Source: Salisapilia sapeloensis
Taxonomy: Eukaryota; Oomycota; Peronosporomycetes; Peronosporales; Salisapiliaceae
Direction: 5' to 3'
Length of the DNA: 20,617 bases
Assembly: GCA_023334545.1 (NCBI GenBank)
Contig: JAADVB010000295.1
Coordinates: 1-20,617, forward strand
Position 1 is the first letter of the stretch, and each line of letters opens with the position of its first letter. The position numbers and the translations under genes are program-made. A model generated the notes under the pieces. That model was not told the DNA's origin, did not search any database, and saw nothing but the letters and a program-made list of their open reading frames with translations. Of the stretch, positions 358 through 20,105 are shown piece after piece.

Positions 358-3300
358 TTAGTTCCTACGACCCTTCCGCTTTCCCTTCTTTGCCTCAACC
401 TTTGTCCAGCCTTCGTCCGCAGGCTGCTTCTTGACGGACTTCTTGCTCTTCTTTTTGCTGGGCGTCTCGACAGGGCTGAGCGCCACCTCGGTGCCTTTTA
501 CATACTGCGTCAGCTTCTTGACAGCTTGCTCCAACTGTTGCCTCTCGTGCAAAACACTAATGAAGAAGCGCAGACGACATTTGCCTTCCTCCACTGCCGG
601 ATGGACGATGGGCTTCACGTTTACGTTCGCCTCTTTGCTTAAAAACTTGGATGCCTGCGCGGTCGCGATCGTACTTCCAAGCACGACGACAATCACAGGC
701 GCTCCTCGTTCTGTGCGTTCACCAATGGGCAGTCCGTTCGCCACACACAAGTCGTAAAAGTAGGACGCCTTGTCCTGCAGTTGCTCCGTCCTCTTGCCAC
801 CCTCCGATTGCATGAGCTCGAGGGACCGGAGCGCGGCGGCCGCGTGCGCCGGACTGAGGCCGACACTGAACACGAATCCACCAGCACAGTGCTTGAGGTA
901 GGAGGCCAGGGCCTTGCTACCGAGAATGAAGCCTCCAACAGAGCCCAGGGCCTTGCTCATCGTTCCCATGCGGACGTCCACGTCTGCCGGATCGCACCCA
1001 AAGTGCTCGACAAGTCCTCTGCCAGTCTTGCCCATGGTGCCGAACGAGTGGGCTTCATCCAGGAAGAGCATTGCCTTGTATTTTTTCTTGAGTTCAATGA
1101 CCTGCGGCAGGTGGACGACGTCGCCGTCCATGGAATACACGCTTTCCACAACTATCAGGACGCGACGGTATTTGAGTCGGAGGGAGCTCAGCATGCGCTC
1201 CAGCGCCTTCATGTCGTTGTGTGGGAACGGCTGAACAGTCGCGCCACTCAGCTTTTGGCCCGAGACGCAAGAGTTGTGGTTGAGCGCATCACATAGAATC
1301 AAGTCCTGGGGACCCACCAGCGCTTCCAACGTCGCCACATTCGCTACCCATCCGCCAACAAATAGTGTCGCTGCTTCGCTCCGGAAGAAACTGCACAGCT
1401 CTCTCTCCAGCGCTTCGTTCACGAGCGTCTGGCCGACGATGGGAGAGGAGCTCATGGTGGATCCGTACTCGTCCACGGCGTCCTGCATCGCCTTGTGCAC
1501 TCTCTTGTCGGATGCATGACCGAGGTAGTTGTACGTGTTAAAGTTCACCTGTTGCCTCTTTTCTTCCGTCAAGGATTCCAAGAACGGCACGTGCAGTCCA
1601 GCGTCGCTAAACTCCTTCATCTGCTGCTGGAGGTACTGCACCTCTGGGAAGGATTTAATGTCAAAAGTGCTCGCATCCACTTCCTCCAGACTGCCTACTT
1701 GCAAGTCGCTCTCGCGCGTCTCTCCAACTTCCACATCGCCAGTGGGAAGACCAGGCGCATGCGCAAGAGCCTCTGGAGTCTCGAACTGGAAGAAAGCGGC
1801 GGGAGGCACGACGCATCCGAGGAATTCGCCCAGCTCCGAGCTCAGTCCGACGAGAGCCACCGAATCGAGTCCAAAGGAAGACCAGCTAGCGTCCGAAGAA
1901 ACTTTCTGGCCGACCTCTTGCTCCAGACGCTCTAGCAACCACTGCAAGATCTGCTCTGGGCTCTTCTCGCCCTCCTCCGCTTTAGCCTTCACAACTTTTT
2001 TCGGAACAGTAGCCTCCACTGACTTGACTGTAGGCTTGTAAACCAATAAAGACTTGAGTTGTCCGTCCTCATACTGCAGCTTAGCGGCACTGCGTTGGAT
2101 CTTGCCACTCGTCGTCTTCGGAATGCCTCTCTGTGGCAGCAAGACCAACGCCTCGCACTTCAGTTGATGCTCACGCAACACTGCACCAGCTACTTGTTGC
2201 GCCACACTCTCTAGATCCGATAGACCGTGACGCACTTCAGCAGCCACTACCAGCACCTCTTCCCCATTCCTTTCGACGCTAAAAGCAGCAGAGCATCCCG
2301 GCCGCATGCCCTCATGAGCATTCTCGACGGTGGCTTCCACGTCCTGCGGCGCAATGTTCCTGCCTCGAACGATAATCAGGTCCTTCAGCCTGCCCGTCAC
2401 GAACAGCTCGTCCTTCCTCAGGAAGCCCAAGTCTCCCGTGCGAAGGTACTCTTGTCCGTTCAGTTCGGCGTGGAACGCCTCCTTAGTTTGCTCTGGACGT
2501 TGCCAGTAGCCTTGTGCGACCGACGGGCCGGACACCCAGATCTCTCCCACCTCGTTCTCCCCCATGGCGCGTCCGTCCCGAACAATCTTCACTTGGAACG
2601 TCGGCGCCGCCTTGCCACAGCTGACGAGCGTCATGCCGTGTCCGTCAATAGCTTTCCTCTGCTTCTCCAACTGTTCCTTGCTAACGTCCAGAATCGTCAC
2701 TTCCTTGCGCACCATCGGGTCTTGGCCAGTGCACACGAGCGTCACTTCCGCTAGGCCGTAGCCAGTGTTAAAGGTCTTGGGGTCGAAGCCGCTCTTTCTG
2801 AATTTGCTCGTGAAAGCGTCTAGACTCTCCCGTCGGATCGGCTCCGCAGCACAAATGGCCTGTTTGAGGCAGCGCAAGTCCATCTTCTCTGCCTTCTCGT
2901 CCGTCGTCTTACGAGCCGCCAAAGCATATCCAAAGTTGGGCGCACAGATGTGCGTCGCCTGGTACGCATCGACGATCCGCATCCACATGCCAGGGTCCTT
3001 GATGAAACTGATGGGCGACATGCTGACGCAGCGAGCTTGGTTGACACACGGCATGATGATGAAACCGACGAGTCCCATGTCGTGGTAAGACGGCAGCCAG
3101 CTCACGAGCGTATCGTCCTTGATGATGCTGTCCCACGTGCGCAGCTGGGCTCGGATGTTGCCATGACTGATCATTATAGCCTTCGGGGCAGCAGTACTGC
3201 CGGACGAGTACTGAAAGAAGGCCAAGTCAGAGCTTTCCAACGCCACTTCCTCAAATTTGTCCTCCAGTCCACTGGCGAGTGCGTCCGTCGAGACCCAAGT

Positions 3301-3936
3301 CACTCCTTCCGGCCAGTTGCTAGTCTTACTCAGCGTCAAGTAGGCTTTGGCCGTCGCCAGTTGGCTCGCCACCTGATACGACCGACACGTCAAGACGCAC
3401 TTGGCACCAGAATCTTCGACCAGTCTCGTGAACTTTGGAAGGTCTTTTGCCAATGTGCCTGGGTACGGAGGGTAGACGGGCACAGCCACTGCGCCAGCGT
3501 AGAGACAGCCCCAGAAGGCCAGGGCAAAGTCAAGTCCAGGAGGGTAGCACAGAGCCACACGATCGCCCTTTTGGATACCGTGTTTTTTCTGCAGACACGC
3601 TGCCACGCGTCTCGCGGCAGCATCCACTTCCGCAAACGAGTAGCTCGTGTCCTCTTTTCCTGCGTCATTCAGAAAAGTGTAGGCGAGCTGTTCGCCAGCA
3701 GCACTCGCAGCCACATTCTTGAGCTCCTGAATGACAGACGTAAAGTCCTCCTTCTTTCCCTTCTTCTTTGCCTTTTTCCCCTTCTTGCCAGTCTTTTTGG
3801 CCTGCGTCACCGGGCGCTCCTTCCGGCATCCGTGGTAGACGCCGGCAGCCATGGCCGAAGCGGAGACGACGGAGGCTGCCGTGATGACTCCTTCGTAGGA
3901 GAGCTGTCCCACGACGTCAGTGATGAGGGAGGACAT
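358..3936 (-). CDS. Fatty acyl-AMP ligase / acyl carrier protein / serine-palmitoyltransferase-like fusion enzyme
   Basis: Single-exon, 1192 residues. Order: a hydrophobic N-terminal segment (about 16-35), a Lys-rich linker (47-62), an adenylating domain (about 68-620), a carrier domain (about 660-725), a PLP-dependent alpha-oxoamine synthase (about 795-1147) and a second Lys-rich tail (1160-1192). Adenylation motifs seen: P-loop YSSGSTAAPK (243-252), WLPSYHDMGL (280-289), GYGLAE (392-397), TGDLG (500-504), GRLKDLIIVRGRN and the catalytic Lys612 in PKTTSGK. The YHDMGL and APNFGYALAARK blocks are typical of fatty acyl-AMP ligases rather than acyl-CoA ligases. The carrier has FGLDSVAL with phosphopantetheine Ser692. 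The PLP domain has TYNYLG, His887, LDEAHS (Asp960, His963) and PLP Lys995 in MSKALGSVGG, resembling serine palmitoyltransferase. Known for the families: FAAL activates free fatty acid and loads it onto the carrier; oxoamine synthases condense acyl thioesters with an amino acid. Inferred: membrane-anchored synthesis of a 3-ketosphinganine-like product. The amino-acid substrate is unknown. Confidence 0.9.
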   Translation of the reverse strand: MSSLITDVVGQLSYEGVITAASVVSASAMAAGVYHGCRKERPVTQAKKTGKKGKKAKKKGKKEDFTSVIQELKNVAASAAGEQLAYTFLNDAGKEDTSYSFAEVDAAARRVAACLQKKHGIQKGDRVALCYPPGLDFALAFWGCLYAGAVAVPVYPPYPGTLAKDLPKFTRLVEDSGAKCVLTCRSYQVASQLATAKAYLTLSKTSNWPEGVTWVSTDALASGLEDKFEEVALESSDLAFFQYSSGSTAAPKAIMISHGNIRAQLRTWDSIIKDDTLVSWLPSYHDMGLVGFIIMPCVNQARCVSMSPISFIKDPGMWMRIVDAYQATHICAPNFGYALAARKTTDEKAEKMDLRCLKQAICAAEPIRRESLDAFTSKFRKSGFDPKTFNTGYGLAEVTLVCTGQDPMVRKEVTILDVSKEQLEKQRKAIDGHGMTLVSCGKAAPTFQVKIVRDGRAMGENEVGEIWVSGPSVAQGYWQRPEQTKEAFHAELNGQEYLRTGDLGFLRKDELFVTGRLKDLIIVRGRNIAPQDVEATVENAHEGMRPGCSAAFSVERNGEEVLVVAAEVRHGLSDLESVAQQVAGAVLREHQLKCEALVLLPQRGIPKTTSGKIQRSAAKLQYEDGQLKSLLVYKPTVKSVEATVPKKVVKAKAEEGEKSPEQILQWLLERLEQEVGQKVSSDASWSSFGLDSVALVGLSSELGEFLGCVVPPAAFFQFETPEALAHAPGLPTGDVEVGETRESDLQVGSLEEVDASTFDIKSFPEVQYLQQQMKEFSDAGLHVPFLESLTEEKRQQVNFNTYNYLGHASDKRVHKAMQDAVDEYGSTMSSSPIVGQTLVNEALERELCSFFRSEAATLFVGGWVANVATLEALVGPQDLILCDALNHNSCVSGQKLSGATVQPFPHNDMKALERMLSSLRLKYRRVLIVVESVYSMDGDVVHLPQVIELKKKYKAMLFLDEAHSFGTMGKTGRGLVEHFGCDPADVDVRMGTMSKALGSVGGFILGSKALASYLKHCAGGFVFSVGLSPAHAAAALRSLELMQSEGGKRTEQLQDKASYFYDLCVANGLPIGERTERGAPVIVVVLGSTIATAQASKFLSKEANVNVKPIVHPAVEEGKCRLRFFISVLHERQQLEQAVKKLTQYVKGTEVALSPVETPSKKKSKKSVKKQPADEGWTKVEAKKGKRKGRRN

Positions 3937-15090: not shown

Positions 15091-15098
15091 AAGAGTGA
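15091..15098 (-). promoter_or_regulatory. Candidate oomycete initiator for the FUN14 gene
   Basis: TCACTCTT on the - strand fits YCAYTYYY and lies 85-92 nt upstream of the FUN14 start. It is only 18 nt from the divergent RING-Tubby start, so the two leaders would nearly abut. Confidence 0.27.
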
Positions 15099-15115
15099 GA
15101 AAAACGCAAAGCGAG

Positions 15116-16537
15116 ATGGAGTCGACGACGAATGGAGCTACTGCTGCTGCGAACACACCTAGTCTGTTGCGCCGATACGAAGAGTCTTTAACGAGAGCCA
15201 TCTCCCCTCGGTCCACACGCGGCCTGTCAGATGCAAACGCGCCCTTGGCGTCTCCGTCTGGACCTCGAAGCTCCGCGACGGCAGCCCAGGACCCATCTTT
15301 GGCTGTTCGCCCCATGTCCCCTCGAGCCGTCTTGAACTCTCCTCGGAATTTCGATGAGGTCGACCCGCAATCCTTTCCTTTTCTCCATAGGCGAAATCGA
15401 AATCAATTAAAATCCGAGAACAAAGATCAGGACGAATATGAAGAAAAACTCCCGGCTTCGGATCAAGACGCACAGGTGCAGCTAGAAGACGTCGACACGA
15501 CCAACACTGGTGCAGACAAGGGGGACGACTATGGAGAAGGTTGTCTCATTTGCATGGACGAATTCACAGAACGGAGGAAAGCCTATCCACTGCCGTGTAC
15601 GAGCAACTGCGTCGGTGCCTACGTCCACTACCGATGCATCATGGCATGGCTGGGACAGAGCGGAAGCTGTCCGCTCTGCCGAGGTCTGTGCGATCCGCTC
15701 GTGCTAGAACCTCTGGAGCGACTGGAGCTGGACGATATTCACAAAGTGGCCTTGCAGCCAGTGCCTCTGGACGCCGGTATCATCCGCTGCTATGTGAAGC
15801 AGGTGTACCGAGGTTTGTTCAAACAGTACTCATACGAACTGTATATGCAGGGTCAGTTAGGGACGCAGGAGGAAGACCGGTTTCTCCTGACGGCCAAGCG
15901 CCAAGTCCGGTCCAACATGACTGCCAACTACACCATCTACACGGACCGAGAAGGCTCCGAGGATAGTCGTATTGGTCGCATGGGCTCCAACTTCCTAGGC
16001 ACGTGCTTCACAATGTACGACAACGGCCGAGATCCGCAGAAATTAGCCAAGGTCCAGGACGCCATTTGCTCGGAAGACGTCGCGCAGAACGTGCTTCAAA
16101 TTCGAGAAGAGCTCGGATGCGTCACGTACGAGCCCAACCGGACGAGTGTCGGACCGCGGAAGATGCGCGTCGTGATTCCAGACGTGGACGAGAGCGGAGG
16201 TGCGTCCAAGGTCGTTCGGCCCATGAGTCGGCAGGACCGACTCGCCAGTCGACTTGCCAACAACGAAATGAAGGACCTCATGCGCTTTGCCAATCGGGAG
16301 CCTGTCTTCCGTGAAGACCTGGGCGCCTACTGCCTCGACTTTGGCGGTCGCGTGTCAATGGCGAGCGTCAAGAACTTCCAGCTGATCCACACCGAGGACC
16401 CTTCCATGGGCAACGTCCTCCAATTTGGCCGAGTTGCGGACGACACGTTCACCATGGACTTCCAGTGGCCGCTCTCTCCCTTCCAGGCCTTTGCGATCTG
16501 CCTCTCGAGCTGCGACACGAAGCTCGCGTGCGTCTAG
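15116..16537 (+). CDS. RING-type zinc finger fused to a Tubby C-terminal domain, putative E3 ubiquitin ligase
   Basis: Single-exon, 473 residues; the ATG at 15116 was chosen over an upstream in-frame GTG. Residues 1-135 are polar and probably disordered, with several SPR motifs. Residues 143-188 are a C4HC3 zinc finger: Cys143, Cys146, Cys161, Cys165, His171, Cys174, Cys185, Cys188. This is RING-CH-like in ligand order, although the third and fourth Cys are three residues apart. A Tubby domain runs from about 221 to 473: FLLTAKRQVRSNMTANYTIY (256-275), GRMGSNFLGTCFTMYDNG (287-304), SVKNFQLIH (417-425), LQFGRVADDTFTMDF (435-449) and the terminal block PLSPFQAFAICLSSCDTKLA. Basic residues 261-265 occupy the position where Tubby proteins bind PI(4,5)P2. 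Known: such zinc fingers recruit E2 enzymes and Tubby domains bind phosphoinositide membranes. Inferred: a membrane-tethered ubiquitin ligase. Confidence 0.9.
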   Translation: MESTTNGATAAANTPSLLRRYEESLTRAISPRSTRGLSDANAPLASPSGPRSSATAAQDPSLAVRPMSPRAVLNSPRNFDEVDPQSFPFLHRRNRNQLKSENKDQDEYEEKLPASDQDAQVQLEDVDTTNTGADKGDDYGEGCLICMDEFTERRKAYPLPCTSNCVGAYVHYRCIMAWLGQSGSCPLCRGLCDPLVLEPLERLELDDIHKVALQPVPLDAGIIRCYVKQVYRGLFKQYSYELYMQGQLGTQEEDRFLLTAKRQVRSNMTANYTIYTDREGSEDSRIGRMGSNFLGTCFTMYDNGRDPQKLAKVQDAICSEDVAQNVLQIREELGCVTYEPNRTSVGPRKMRVVIPDVDESGGASKVVRPMSRQDRLASRLANNEMKDLMRFANREPVFREDLGAYCLDFGGRVSMASVKNFQLIHTEDPSMGNVLQFGRVADDTFTMDFQWPLSPFQAFAICLSSCDTKLACV

Positions 16538-16622: not shown

Positions 16623-17585
16623 ATGACGGTACTCCTGCCGGCGTCCGTAGCTGACGCCAATTGGTTTCTCCTGGCCTCAACGGTCCCTCTTCTTCTTTCC
16701 TTCTTGTTACTACGATGGTGGTCTCGATCCAAGCGCAATAGAGGCAACGGGCGGATCGTCGTATGGATCCTGATACTCCTCTTTTGGCTACTCATCCTGC
16801 TCGGCGTGGGGCTCGAGGCGTACCACGCCAACGACTGTCCGAACAGCACATCCTTTCACTCGGAGACCAAGTCGGTCGCCAAGTTCCTCCTGGGTTTCCT
16901 CAACGCACGTGACTTGCCCTACTGGATTACCTTTGGCGACTTGCTCTTCGTACTGCGACAGCAGACGGAGATCCCAGCAAAAGACTCGGACGCAGACGTT
17001 GCCATGCTAGATCAGGATTTCTTCCGAACCTTTTCAGATGTATACACGTTTGCAAGAGAATTGCAGCAGTATAGCAACACGCCAGTCAATGTCCAATACC
17101 GAAGTAACCGCAGTATGATCCAAGTGTACGGTCCAACTGGCGACTGGGGACCGCACATTGACTTGTGGCTCTTCAACTTGGAAAAGGACAACGTGTCCGA
17201 TGCACTCGCTGTCGTACACATGGATCGCACGATCCGAGCCCACCGTTTACCACACGACCAAGTCTTTCCTCTGACGACTGCATCTACTGCGTTTGAGGAT
17301 GGACCAGTAAAGATACCATTCAACGCTTCTTTCGTCGCTGAACAAGAGTACGGCAGCAACTTTATGACGCCAGTGATGACGCGACTCGAGTGCATCGAAA
17401 ACGTGTACAACGGGTTTACTTTCTACAATAATTTTGCTCTCGGCTTCCTCTACGCGTCTTCCTGGGTCCTACTCAGCTGTGCCTTGACCGTCAGCGTCGT
17501 CCTTAAGTTGCCAAAGCAGAGTCAAGCGACCATGCTGAACGGCCACAAGTACGCCATGCTACCGACGAAGCAGTCGAAAGACTAA
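16623..17585 (+). CDS. LicD/fukutin-like nucleotidyl- or phosphotransferase, membrane-anchored
   Basis: Single-exon, 320 residues. Two N-terminal hydrophobic segments (about 14-32 and 44-65) and one C-terminal (about 269-295) flank a soluble domain. The core has WITFGDLLFVLRQ (101-113) followed by IPAKDSDADVAML (117-129), matching the LicD pattern 'G-x-LL-x-x-R ... IP-x-D-x-D-x-D' with metal-binding Asp121, Asp123 and Asp125. A second block is HIDLWLF (178-184), then VFPLTTASTAFEDGPVKIP. Four N-glycosylation sequons (Asn74, 162, 190, 234) lie between the membrane segments, consistent with a lumenal active site in the Golgi/ER (inference). Known relatives (LicD, FKTN/FKRP, MNN4) transfer phosphocholine, ribitol phosphate or mannose phosphate onto glycans. 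The donor here is unknown. The gene starts 85 bp after the RING-Tubby stop, on the same strand. Confidence 0.8.
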   Translation: MTVLLPASVADANWFLLASTVPLLLSFLLLRWWSRSKRNRGNGRIVVWILILLFWLLILLGVGLEAYHANDCPNSTSFHSETKSVAKFLLGFLNARDLPYWITFGDLLFVLRQQTEIPAKDSDADVAMLDQDFFRTFSDVYTFARELQQYSNTPVNVQYRSNRSMIQVYGPTGDWGPHIDLWLFNLEKDNVSDALAVVHMDRTIRAHRLPHDQVFPLTTASTAFEDGPVKIPFNASFVAEQEYGSNFMTPVMTRLECIENVYNGFTFYNNFALGFLYASSWVLLSCALTVSVVLKLPKQSQATMLNGHKYAMLPTKQSKD

Positions 17586-18544: not shown

Positions 18545-19727
18545 ATGGCATCGGACGACGACGACTTTTCACTCGCGTCAGACGAGGAGGTGGAGGAGGA
18601 GGAGGAAGTTGTATCGTCTTCCAACCCACCTTCGGATGATGACGACTTTGTCAGCGACGACGAAATCACGACACCCAAGAAAGCCGCCAAGACGCCACCC
18701 AAGAAGCAGAAAGCAAGCCCATCGAAGAAACGCGGTATCCAGTCGACTGCAACTCGAGACGCAGACCAGGACGCAGTCGCGCCACCGACGAAGCAGGCCA
18801 AGCCATCACCCAAGAAAGCTACCAAGAGCACGCCCAAGAAGGCTGCCAAAAGCACACCTCCTGCTGCCAAATGCGCATCGTCTACTGTGAAGCAGACAGC
18901 AACGCTGCCTCCCTCCGAGGCCAAGAGGAAAGCTCCCGCTGCATCTCCACCAGCAACAGCTACCACAGAAGCTACTACCAAGAAAACAGTCTCGGCAGAT
19001 GACGCTAAGAAGCTCGTTCTAGAGTACATGCAGCAGGCGAATCGTCCGTATAGCGCAGTGAACGTCTGGGAGAACCTGCACAAGTCGATCCCCAAGCCGA
19101 CGATCACCAAGATACTGGACACGCTCACGCAGAGGTACCTTTGCTATCCTTTTTCCATTATCACTCAGTGCTAAGGCCAAAACAGAGGTGACTTAAAGAG
19201 TAAGACGTATGGCAAGTCGGTCATCTACTTTCTCAACCAGGACAAACTGGACGTCATGACCAAGGCTGAGATGGACGGACTATCGAACAAGATACAGGAG
19301 GAAGAGGGTAACGTGGAGGCGATCGAGTCGGAGCTGAAGAAGAAGACGAGTGAGCTGAATCGGTTGCGGACGCAGCTGTCGGAGGAAGAGCTCGAGAAAC
19401 GGTTGGAGGCGGCAGGAACGAAAGCCGAGGAGCTCCAAGTAAAGCTCCAGTCGCTCCAAGATCCGAGTCGGAAGCCCATTTCACCCAACCGGAAGGCCAA
19501 GCTGAAGAAGCAGTTCGACAAGTACAAGGTACGTTTAATGCAGGGTGAAAAGGATACAGAATGTAACAGACTGTGTGCAGAAAGCGTGGGTCGAGCGGAA
19601 GCGGTTGATGACGGACGCCATAGACACGATCGCCGACGGAATGGAGAAGAAGCCAAAAGCGGTGCAAGACATGCTCGAGCTAGAGACAGACGCCTCAGCT
19701 GGTGTCAAGACCATGCCTTGTATTTAG
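18545..19727 (+). CDS. HOP2: HOP2/PSMC3IP meiotic recombination factor with histone-H1-like N-terminal extension, 3 exons
   Basis: Exons 18545-19134, 19186-19528 and 19581-19727; introns of 51 nt (19135-19185) and 52 nt (19529-19580). The joined protein is 359 residues. Residues 1-40 are acidic, with two DDDDF clusters. Residues 41-150 are Lys/Pro/Ala/Ser-rich with SPKK and TPKK motifs like histone H1 tails. The TBPIP/Hop2 winged helix starts near 151: LVLEYMQQANRPYSAVNVWE (158-177), a recognition helix, then a wing with YGKSVIYFLNQD (205-216). A long coiled coil follows (about 220-300), then the C-terminal WVERKRLMTDAI (314-325) and the KPKAVQDMLELETD block, the family's C-terminal helices. 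Known: HOP2 pairs with MND1 and stimulates DMC1/RAD51 strand invasion in meiosis. Both splices restore family-conserved text across the joins. Human PSMC3IP is about 217 residues; the excess is the N-terminal tail. Confidence 0.9.
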
Positions 19728-19752
19728 ACCAGACGAAGAACGCCAATGGTGC

Positions 19753-20105
19753 TTATGCGAACGCTCTCTTTCGCCTCTCCTCTATCTCTCTCTTCTTCTT
19801 TTCCTAGTTACAGAATGTATTCTTTAATATGTACCAGCCACACCATGATAATGATCCATACCTTCATGCACTCCTTGTAGCGATCAAAGTGAGCTTGGCA
19901 CGCATCCGGACGACCTTCATGGTCTGCAAGCAAAAGTTATACGACAGGCAGGTGGCATTGGACGAAAGGATGAACGCACCGAGCAGGCAGCGCAGTGACT
20001 CTTTCTGAAGCTTGGCGCATTCCTGTCTTGTTCATTAGCTGTAGCATGTGCACGATGGATAAACCGTCTACGTACGCCCGCATCAAACTTGGTCGGTGCC
20101 GTCAT
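19753..20105 (-). CDS. Twin CX9C (CHCH) mitochondrial intermembrane-space protein, COX23/CHCHD7-like, 4 small exons
   Basis: Exons 20076-20105, 19980-20022, 19862-19923 and 19753-19803; introns of 53, 56 and 58 nt with donors GTACGT, GTGCGT and GTATGG and acceptors CAG, CAG and TAG. The joined protein is 61 residues. It has Cys12-x9-Cys22 (CAKLQKESLRC) and Cys33-x9-Cys43 (CQAHFDRYKEC), the paired helices of a CHCH fold, then a charged tail EKKKREIEERRKRAFA. Known: twin-CX9C proteins are imported and oxidised by MIA40, and most serve respiratory-complex assembly, COX23/CHCHD7 among them. The subtype is inferred from the spacing and the CLLDHEGRPDAC-like linker. The two CX9C halves are split by an intron but join in phase. 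The last exon is the least certain: if intron 3 is not removed, the frame reads into a stop 17 codons later. The stop is 25 bp from the convergent HOP2 stop. Confidence 0.78.

Follow-up and report, generated by a model that had tools for sequence, protein, structure and literature searches.

A predicted fatty acyl-AMP ligase-carrier-oxoamine synthase fusion in the oomycete Salisapilia sapeloensis: a candidate self-loading enzyme with a possibly sphingoid-like product

Can one protein chain activate a free acid, hold it on its own carrier and condense it with an amino acid, and if so, what would an oomycete make with it? This question is raised by a gene on contig JAADVB010000295.1 of the oomycete Salisapilia sapeloensis (assembly GCA_023334545.1), analysed here over a stretch of 20,617 nucleotides (hereafter the window). 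Read from the letters alone and without a stated strand, the gene at 358..3936 had been proposed to join a fatty acyl-AMP ligase (FAAL), a carrier with Ser692 and a pyridoxal phosphate (PLP) domain with Lys995 in one 1192-residue frame. As the best explanation of the whole, held with somewhat better than even confidence, we propose that it encodes a single-chain, coenzyme A (CoA)-independent, self-loading alpha-oxoamine synthase (AOS) that is probably held at a membrane and makes a sphingoid-like product.

The frame lies on the minus strand, starts with an ATG and runs uninterrupted from 3936 to 358 for 1192 aa, and stops occur in the plus-strand translation of the same stretch. On this protein, the Pfam domains AMP-binding (residues 82-478, 4.6e-67), AMP-dom_DIP2-like (519-628), PP-binding (PF00550; 665-726, 8e-9) and Aminotran_1_2 (PF00155; 795-1142, 3.6e-47) all score above the curated cut-offs, with Ser692 within D691-S692-V and Lys995 within MGTMSK. 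Frame, Pfam and alignments therefore agree with the proposed layout, which is completed by a hydrophobic N-terminal stretch and a basic C-terminal tail. This lysine-rich tail (residues 1160-1192; 361..459, minus) varies among oomycetes in the alignment. The AlphaFold model of the protein has a mean predicted local distance difference test score (pLDDT) of 78.8 and a predicted template-modelling score of 0.53. Contamination was ruled out by the other genes on the contig, which look eukaryotic (TRP-like, FUN14, Tubby and Hop2 by Pfam).

The homologue set holds 120 listed of 6703 matches, with P0001-P0048 as the oomycete grade and P0049-P0120 as the rest. An oomycete species name stands on 31 of the 48 oomycete-grade rows, the other 17 having no species name, and the genera include Phytophthora, Pythium, Globisporangium, Peronospora, Hyaloperonospora, Achlya, Aphanomyces, Saprolegnia and Thraustotheca. 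Among the matches listed, the nearest named homologues of the window protein are oomycete proteins, mostly at 55-62 percent identity, and no counterpart was seen among named eukaryotes outside oomycetes. All three domain types occur in 44 of the 48 rows (P0030, P0043 and P0047 lack one, P0048 lacks two), and this shared architecture, with the single frame found here, makes an artificially joined gene model unlikely. The three domain types are also found, colinear and at 37-42 percent identity, in all 72 of P0049-P0120, and the organisms named there are planctomycete or Pyrinomonadaceae. In a genome collection, at least 586 stretches encode a relative; among the best 80, both halves were matched in 14, of which 13 are from Planctomycetota and one from the cyanobacterium Limnothrix. 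Across 294 sampled genomes from the phylum of G002, the matches listed are full-length in five (G002, G123, G207, G276 and G169, the last as two pieces of one frame), and the match in G222 is cut near a contig end. Judged by its open frame and its conservation, the fusion is a real enzyme-coding gene retained by many oomycetes. No paper on a FAAL-carrier-AOS fusion was found among the open-licence papers listed, which for some queries are a part of the matches; one listed paper that matched both oxoamine synthases and acyl-AMP ligases is on Fum16. A term search of a FAAL paper (PMC11837247), oxoamine and sphingo among the terms, had no match, a term search of PMC8895605 and PMC11765627 gave nothing on the fusion, and eukaryotic FAAL-like proteins are described without it in the sections covered of PMC8460268.

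The N-terminal half (residues 68-628; 2053..3735, minus) had been assigned to the FAALs rather than to the acyl-CoA ligases. Its best PDB sequence relatives are FAALs. FAALs (FadD23 and FadD32 included) also fill the first 29 places among the fold matches of the AlphaFold model, with the Synechococcus olefin synthase FAAL at the top; an AOS-type fold match, to Sphingobacterium serine palmitoyltransferase (SPT), first appears at rank 46. In excerpts of PMC8460268, the residues plugging the CoA pocket of EcFAAL are given as W224, M231 and F279 and the FAAL-specific helix as R251-P259, a numbering that fits, at one offset, the Escherichia coli BL21 gene adjoining acpR and spt. By alignment, the three plug residues correspond to W280, M287 and F335 of the window protein. 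The equivalent of the helix, which plugs the CoA pocket, lies at residues 307-315 (2992..3018, minus; helix 308-313 in the model), and the FAAL-specific insertion at residues about 404-440 (2617..2727, minus; mostly gapped in E. coli FadD); FadD has neither. An acyl-CoA ligase identity is ruled out by these alignments and fold matches. The sequence-only reading had named an acyl-CoA ligase without a carrier as the outcome that would overturn it; this was tested, and FAAL signatures and a PP-binding domain were found instead. The N-terminal half is thus of the FAAL type by sequence and fold, and is predicted to charge an acyl carrier protein (ACP).

That the middle part is a true carrier was likewise borne out. 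Besides the PP-binding match that defines the domain (residues 665-726; 1759..1944, minus), Ser692 in GLDSV, the predicted phosphopantetheine site (codon 1861..1863, minus), is invariant across 52 aligned sequences. Two matches to phosphopantetheinyl transferases (PPTases) in the genome exceed the cut-off, and one of the two falls within a frame of 4128 residues. The genome also encodes a second FAAL-carrier protein (L002; contig C90, 1396-3312, minus; 639 aa in frame). Its final residues, CGCIAC, resemble a lipidation signal, and its relatives are found both among oomycetes and in further stramenopiles, Pseudo-nitzschia, Chrysoparadoxa and Pinguiococcus among them.

The C-terminal half contains the PLP-dependent AOS domain (residues 790-1150; 487..1569, minus). 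Its best PDB relatives are SPTs, human SPTLC2 at the top together with the Sphingobacterium enzyme, and it carries an SPTLC2-like YNYLG motif. H887, D960, H963 and K995, the last being the predicted Schiff-base lysine (codon 952..954, minus), are kept in 52/52 oomycete and 182/182 bacterial rows, as expected from the earlier claim of an intact AOS, and R1123 is present in 49 of the 52 oomycete rows, the remaining three being gapped at that position. P0250, P0263 and P0283 were left out of these counts and of the alignment with 12 BioFs considered below.

At the very start of the protein, residues 1-35 (3832..3936, minus) comprise a hydrophobic stretch followed by a lysine-rich segment, of low pLDDT in the model and a likely signal anchor. 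The window protein has a Kyte-Doolittle maximum (averaged over 19 residues, within the first 80) of 1.52, and such a hydrophobic start (1.33-2.29) is shared by 41 of 43 oomycete rows, mostly with basic residues behind it; only P0037 (1.28) and P0042 (0.81) fall below this range. The bacterial fusions reach 0.44-0.89 in seven of eight cases, the value of 1.84 in P0050 arising inside the FAAL domain, and the N-terminal extension was not found in seven aligned bacterial rows. The oomycete fusion is probably membrane-anchored. Given the hydrophobic stretch with basic residues behind it, the positive-inside rule would place the catalytic domains on the cytosolic side, as in SPT.

From this domain content, we infer a reaction sequence, as well as the topology, chain length and amino acid involved. 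The FAAL domain would adenylate a free carboxylic acid with ATP, and the acyl group would then be passed to the phosphopantetheine arm on Ser692 of the adjoining carrier. In the AOS, the acyl thioester brought by the carrier would meet an amino acid bound as its PLP aldimine; the two would condense, CO2 would be lost and an alpha-amino ketone released without CoA. Such a self-loading mechanism is, in our judgement, highly probable. Most likely, the enzyme would take a long-chain fatty acid and yield a sphingoid-like base, separately from the LCB1/LCB2 enzyme; we favour this product, if only by a little, and the substrates of the two catalytic domains need not be palmitate and serine. If the proposal is true, oomycetes would have a second sphingoid-type lipid route or, under the alternative discussed below, an explanation for the start of their biotin synthesis. 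Plants sense branched sphingoid bases of oomycetes, as stated in excerpts of PMC13030833 and PMC12656609.

The sequence-only reading had placed the fusion beside a normal SPT, and LCB1 and LCB2 were indeed found in the same genome. LCB2 (L003) is accompanied by LCB1 (L006, PLP lysine lost), 5-aminolevulinate synthase (ALAS, L005) and 2-amino-3-ketobutyrate CoA ligase (KBL, L004), the identities of L004-L008 being assigned by motif and tree. In trees, this LCB2 pairs with human SPTLC2, apart from the fusion; the LCB2 of Phytophthora ramorum is placed with conventional LCB2 in the sections covered of PMC5519370. A short-chain dehydrogenase/reductase (SDR; L147) has the ketodihydrosphingosine reductase TSC10 as its best solved relative (1.2e-31 versus 2.9e-16 for the next), and the genome has TLC-domain genes of the ceramide synthase kind. 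Because the LCB1/LCB2 SPT, a TSC10-like reductase and TLC-domain genes are all present, the fusion is additional to the standard start of sphingolipid synthesis. LCB2-like C-terminal pieces were also observed at the starts of two contigs (L007, C231; L008, C132), and several LCB2 copies seem to be present.

Bacterial loci give a further indication of the product. In Limnothrix (L018, 9911-19559), a FAAL-ACP-AOS gene is followed by an SDR, a second FAAL, an FAD-binding protein and a glycosyltransferase, and its AOS groups with bacterial SPT. In Ectobacillus panaciterrae (L070, 8356-17597), a thioesterase, a PPTase, a FAAL, a polyketide synthase (PKS) ending in an AOS and an epimerase-family protein lie together. 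In E. coli BL21 (L113), a FAAL, an epimerase-family protein, an ACP and spt are separate neighbours, and the RefSeq name of the synthetase is fatty acyl-AMP ligase. By analogy, these contexts favour lipid-derived amino ketones. No recurrent pathway neighbour emerged around the fusions in a scan of 14 loci and 20 neighbours, where a putative porin family occurred in three loci and others in two. As separate observations, the Limnothrix locus is possibly a cyanobacterial sphingolipid-like cluster; three Planctomycetota proteins (L107, L108, L109) carry a FAAL, a carrier and a C-terminal part that by eye resembles a thioester reductase; and four others (L140-L143, from G125, G053, G091 and G028; Planctomycetota), with frames of about 1090-1150 residues that match window residues about 437-1159 at 31-32 percent, perhaps represent another ligase-carrier-AOS family.

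Several observations weigh against an active fusion with a sphingoid-like product. Some oomycete gene models hold a carrier and an AOS (P0241) or an AOS alone (P0243, P0244, P0246), and those of P0043 and P0047 have no AOS; fragmentary gene models are the likely cause of such partial sets. In the AOS, position 832 is Pro in 52/52 oomycete rows versus Arg in 182/182 bacterial ones, and position 989 is Arg in 50/52 versus Trp in 171/182. Arg at 832 is also found in SPTLC2, two bacterial SPTs, KBL and ALAS, and this genome's LCB2 has Asn. Pro832 lies in the AOS substrate loop (residues 826-835; 1432..1461, minus), from which the oomycetes have also lost one residue directly after Val834, and residues 829-835 have a pLDDT below 50 in the model. 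In LCB1, the aligned loop contains the cysteine that, when mutated in human SPTLC1, allows SPT to accept alanine and glycine. Oomycete-only changes within an otherwise conserved loop could mean that the AOS half, like LCB1, has no activity or a regulatory one, and that the FAAL-carrier half serves another partner; however, the fusion retains its PLP lysine and catalytic residues, and it is the LCB1 of the same genome that has lost its lysine, so that we consider this explanation very improbable.

The FAAL half of the active, self-loading enzyme that we prefer raises points against a fatty acid substrate as well. At ten FAAL positions fixed to at least 90 percent, the oomycetes (45 rows) differ from the bacterial fusions (72) and from the set of the second oomycete FAAL (116). 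The oomycete-only residues include C331, G336, C362, C391 (Thr in the window protein) and G392; with these and with Pro832 and Arg989 of the AOS, the substrates may differ from a fatty acid plus serine. We take the motifs holding these residues to be ones that usually line the acyl pocket; with such changes, the acid may not be plain C16 or C18. The Limnothrix SDR also speaks less clearly for sphingoid bases than its position suggests: its best solved relative is TSC10 at 101.4 bits versus 101.2 bits for a hydroxyacyl-CoA dehydrogenase, and it reaches no NCBIfam cut-off among the 25 models shown. Within the oomycete genome, the protein that this SDR matches best is the TSC10-like L147. As the TSC10 match is weak, we lowered our confidence in the best explanation by a trace. 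Finally, no AOS family reaches its NCBIfam cut-off in the window protein, the top score being that of bioF (323.4 versus 426.45 bits), and no BioF above the cut-off was found in this one assembly, the completeness of which was not measured.

It was this top score that led us to search the genome for biotin genes. BioB is present (363 bits, cut-off 225), and BioD and BioA share one 782-residue frame (contig C343, 5989-8142; Pfam AAA_26 and Aminotran_3), of which the BioA pieces score below the BioA cut-off. The genome matches to TIGR00858, all below its cut-off, are led by ALAS (323.9) and the window protein (323.6), followed by KBL and the LCBs. By these assignments, the fusion is the only AOS in the assembly without a job, spare LCB2-like copies aside. 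The window protein might therefore be the oomycete synthase of 8-amino-7-oxononanoate (KAPA), the missing first committed enzyme of biotin synthesis, replacing both BioF and a separate pimelate-activating enzyme: the FAAL would adenylate free pimelate and load the carrier, and the AOS would condense the acyl group with L-alanine, the enzyme having arisen by the joining of a FAAL to a bacterial oxoamine synthase of the lipid type. BioB and BioD-BioA without a recognisable BioF are what this would predict, and the other families sought in the assembly (PPTase, ketosphinganine reductase-like SDR, TLC domain) did turn up. The occurrence of the fusion in the downy mildews Peronospora and Hyaloperonospora also fits a vitamin step.

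The AOS itself fits this role poorly. One clade of the fusion AOSs with BioF was rejected by the approximately unbiased (AU) test (p 6e-5), although the BioFs themselves do not form one clade, which adds to the penalty. NDYL and RPP(T/S)V are present in 12/12 aligned BioFs, and the window protein has TYNYLG and IVHPAV instead. Pro832 and Arg989 looked strong as BioF states with four BioFs and weakened with twelve: two planctomycete BioFs have Pro at the equivalent of 832 and three BioFs have Arg at that of 989, but 832 is Arg in seven of the twelve, a weak match overall. Moreover, FAALs are known for fatty acids, and the bacterial fusion genomes carry a separate BioF (above the cut-off in 4/5, the fifth at 399 bits). 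The word biotin is absent from the main texts, as far as covered, of the oomycete papers PMC6747730, PMC6493774, PMC3130010 and PMC4594904. Altogether, we regard a role in biotin synthesis as doubtful, and retain a sphingoid-like base as the favoured product.

Where the fusion came from was addressed with trees of the quick kind, supported by the Shimodaira-Hasegawa-like approximate likelihood ratio test only, and with AU-test groups named after a tree was seen. The AOS trees hold 82, 56 and 56 rows. The first AOS and FAAL trees omit duplicates and partial frames (L001, L089, L090, L093, L098, L099, L114 or L017) and keep one in four or one in six of the bacterial P rows; the later FAAL tree was built without E. 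coli AasR and without about half of the FAAL rows, BACF_P0067 being outside the AU group tested; five more rows are left out of the FAAL tree for the second bacterial fusion type; and the AOS tree with BioFs leaves out BACF_L134, AOS_L120 and three N rows. In the AOS trees, the oomycete sequences group together (99) within a larger clade (99) that takes in bacterial carrier-linked AOSs, which have FAAL-ACP-AOS, ACP-AOS and PKS-terminal forms, and some frames with no carrier; support for the bacterial side is 95, 88 and 83 in the three trees. Human SPTLC2 and the genome's own LCB2 join this clade at 93, 92 and 95, and bacterial SPTs lie further out. The AOS of L119, from a 2586-residue frame, also falls in the fusion's AOS clade. 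P0250, which may be a faulty sequence, is placed oddly among the oomycetes in one tree. Where an AOS protein has no FAAL match, a carrier motif precedes the AOS in 38 of the 61 rows that have at least 80 upstream residues. The carrier tells a similar story: in 42 of 45 oomycete fusions it scores better against the bacterial-fusion profile than against the stramenopile profile (31.9 versus 11.3 bits for the window carrier).

The FAAL domain behaves differently. In the FAAL trees, the oomycete fusions fall on the side of stramenopile FAALs, the oomycetes' own FAAL-carrier protein and a planctomycete FAAL-carrier family, not with the bacterial fusions; the single AasR sits on a long branch of unsure place. 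One clade with the planctomycete-type fusions was rejected (AU p 0.016), one with the second bacterial fusion type was borderline (p 0.049), and one with the stramenopile FAALs was not rejected (p 0.41). Separate domain trees, which the sequence-only reading had called for, thus gave a split answer, the AOS and carrier being bacterial-like and the FAAL compatible with stramenopiles; its remark that the domain order recalls bacterial modules holds for the order itself, but the FAAL trees speak against the entire gene having simply been transferred. That an oomycete ancestor took over a finished FAAL-ACP-AOS gene from a bacterium, with fast change of the FAAL hiding the kinship, would account for the colinear bacterial homologues at 37-42 percent identity, the common AOS clade and the bacterial-type carrier; against the placement of the FAALs and the three AU results, we judge it rather unlikely. 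Taken at their simplest, the trees suggest that the fusion is a chimera of a stramenopile-type FAAL and a bacterial carrier-AOS, and that FAAL, carrier and AOS have been joined in one chain more than once. A planctomycete copy (L134) has its FAAL-ACP joined to yet another AOS.

Elsewhere in the window, a 480-aa frame (15095-16537, plus) joins a RING finger to a Tubby domain. A Hop2-like gene (18545-19807, plus) apparently lies in two frames, probably with an intron between, the first having a winged-helix match and the second a coiled-coil look by eye. The 320-aa protein at 16623-17585 (plus) has no Pfam match; by eye its middle reads as what we take to be a LicD/fukutin-type transferase.

Set beside known systems, the predicted enzyme shares parts with several. 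Fum8 and PigH are PKS- or carrier-linked oxoamine synthases, and in such PKS- or carrier-terminal enzymes the AOS is fed by an acyl carrier, as in the window protein; the Ectobacillus enzyme falls in the same AOS clade, but by Pfam the window protein has no ketosynthase or chain extension. BioF, which accepts a pimeloyl thioester, belongs to the same AOS family, but the window protein neither shows the BioF stretches nor falls with BioF in the tree. Eukaryotic SPT is an LCB1/LCB2 heterodimer with which the window protein has the AOS fold and YNYLG in common; the fusion AOS does not group with characterised SPTs and forms a clade of its own (support 99). The eukaryotic enzyme uses acyl-CoA, as stated in the sections covered of PMC9386255. 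The uncharacterised bacterial FAAL-ACP-AOS proteins, mostly from Planctomycetota and some acidobacterial, have the same three domains in the same order, but they differ in Arg832, mostly Trp989, another FAAL branch and, in those examined, the lack of an N-terminal anchor. In mechanism, it would resemble the AasR-AcpR-SPT system of Rhodobacteria (Caulobacter, E. coli BL21): excerpts of PMC9386255 describe how, in Caulobacter, a special acyl-ACP synthetase, AasR, loads a special ACP, AcpR, for SPT, a FAAL-type synthetase thus loading a dedicated carrier that feeds an AOS. These are three proteins, whereas in the window protein FAAL, dedicated carrier and AOS are all present and linked in one chain with an N-terminal hydrophobic stretch, and its AOS does not group with BL21 SPT. 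By analogy, one chain would do the work of AasR, AcpR and SPT, and, as far as its sequence tells, the fusion belongs with the known acyl-ACP-fed oxoamine synthases, as a variant in one chain whose active sites carry changes seen in oomycetes only.

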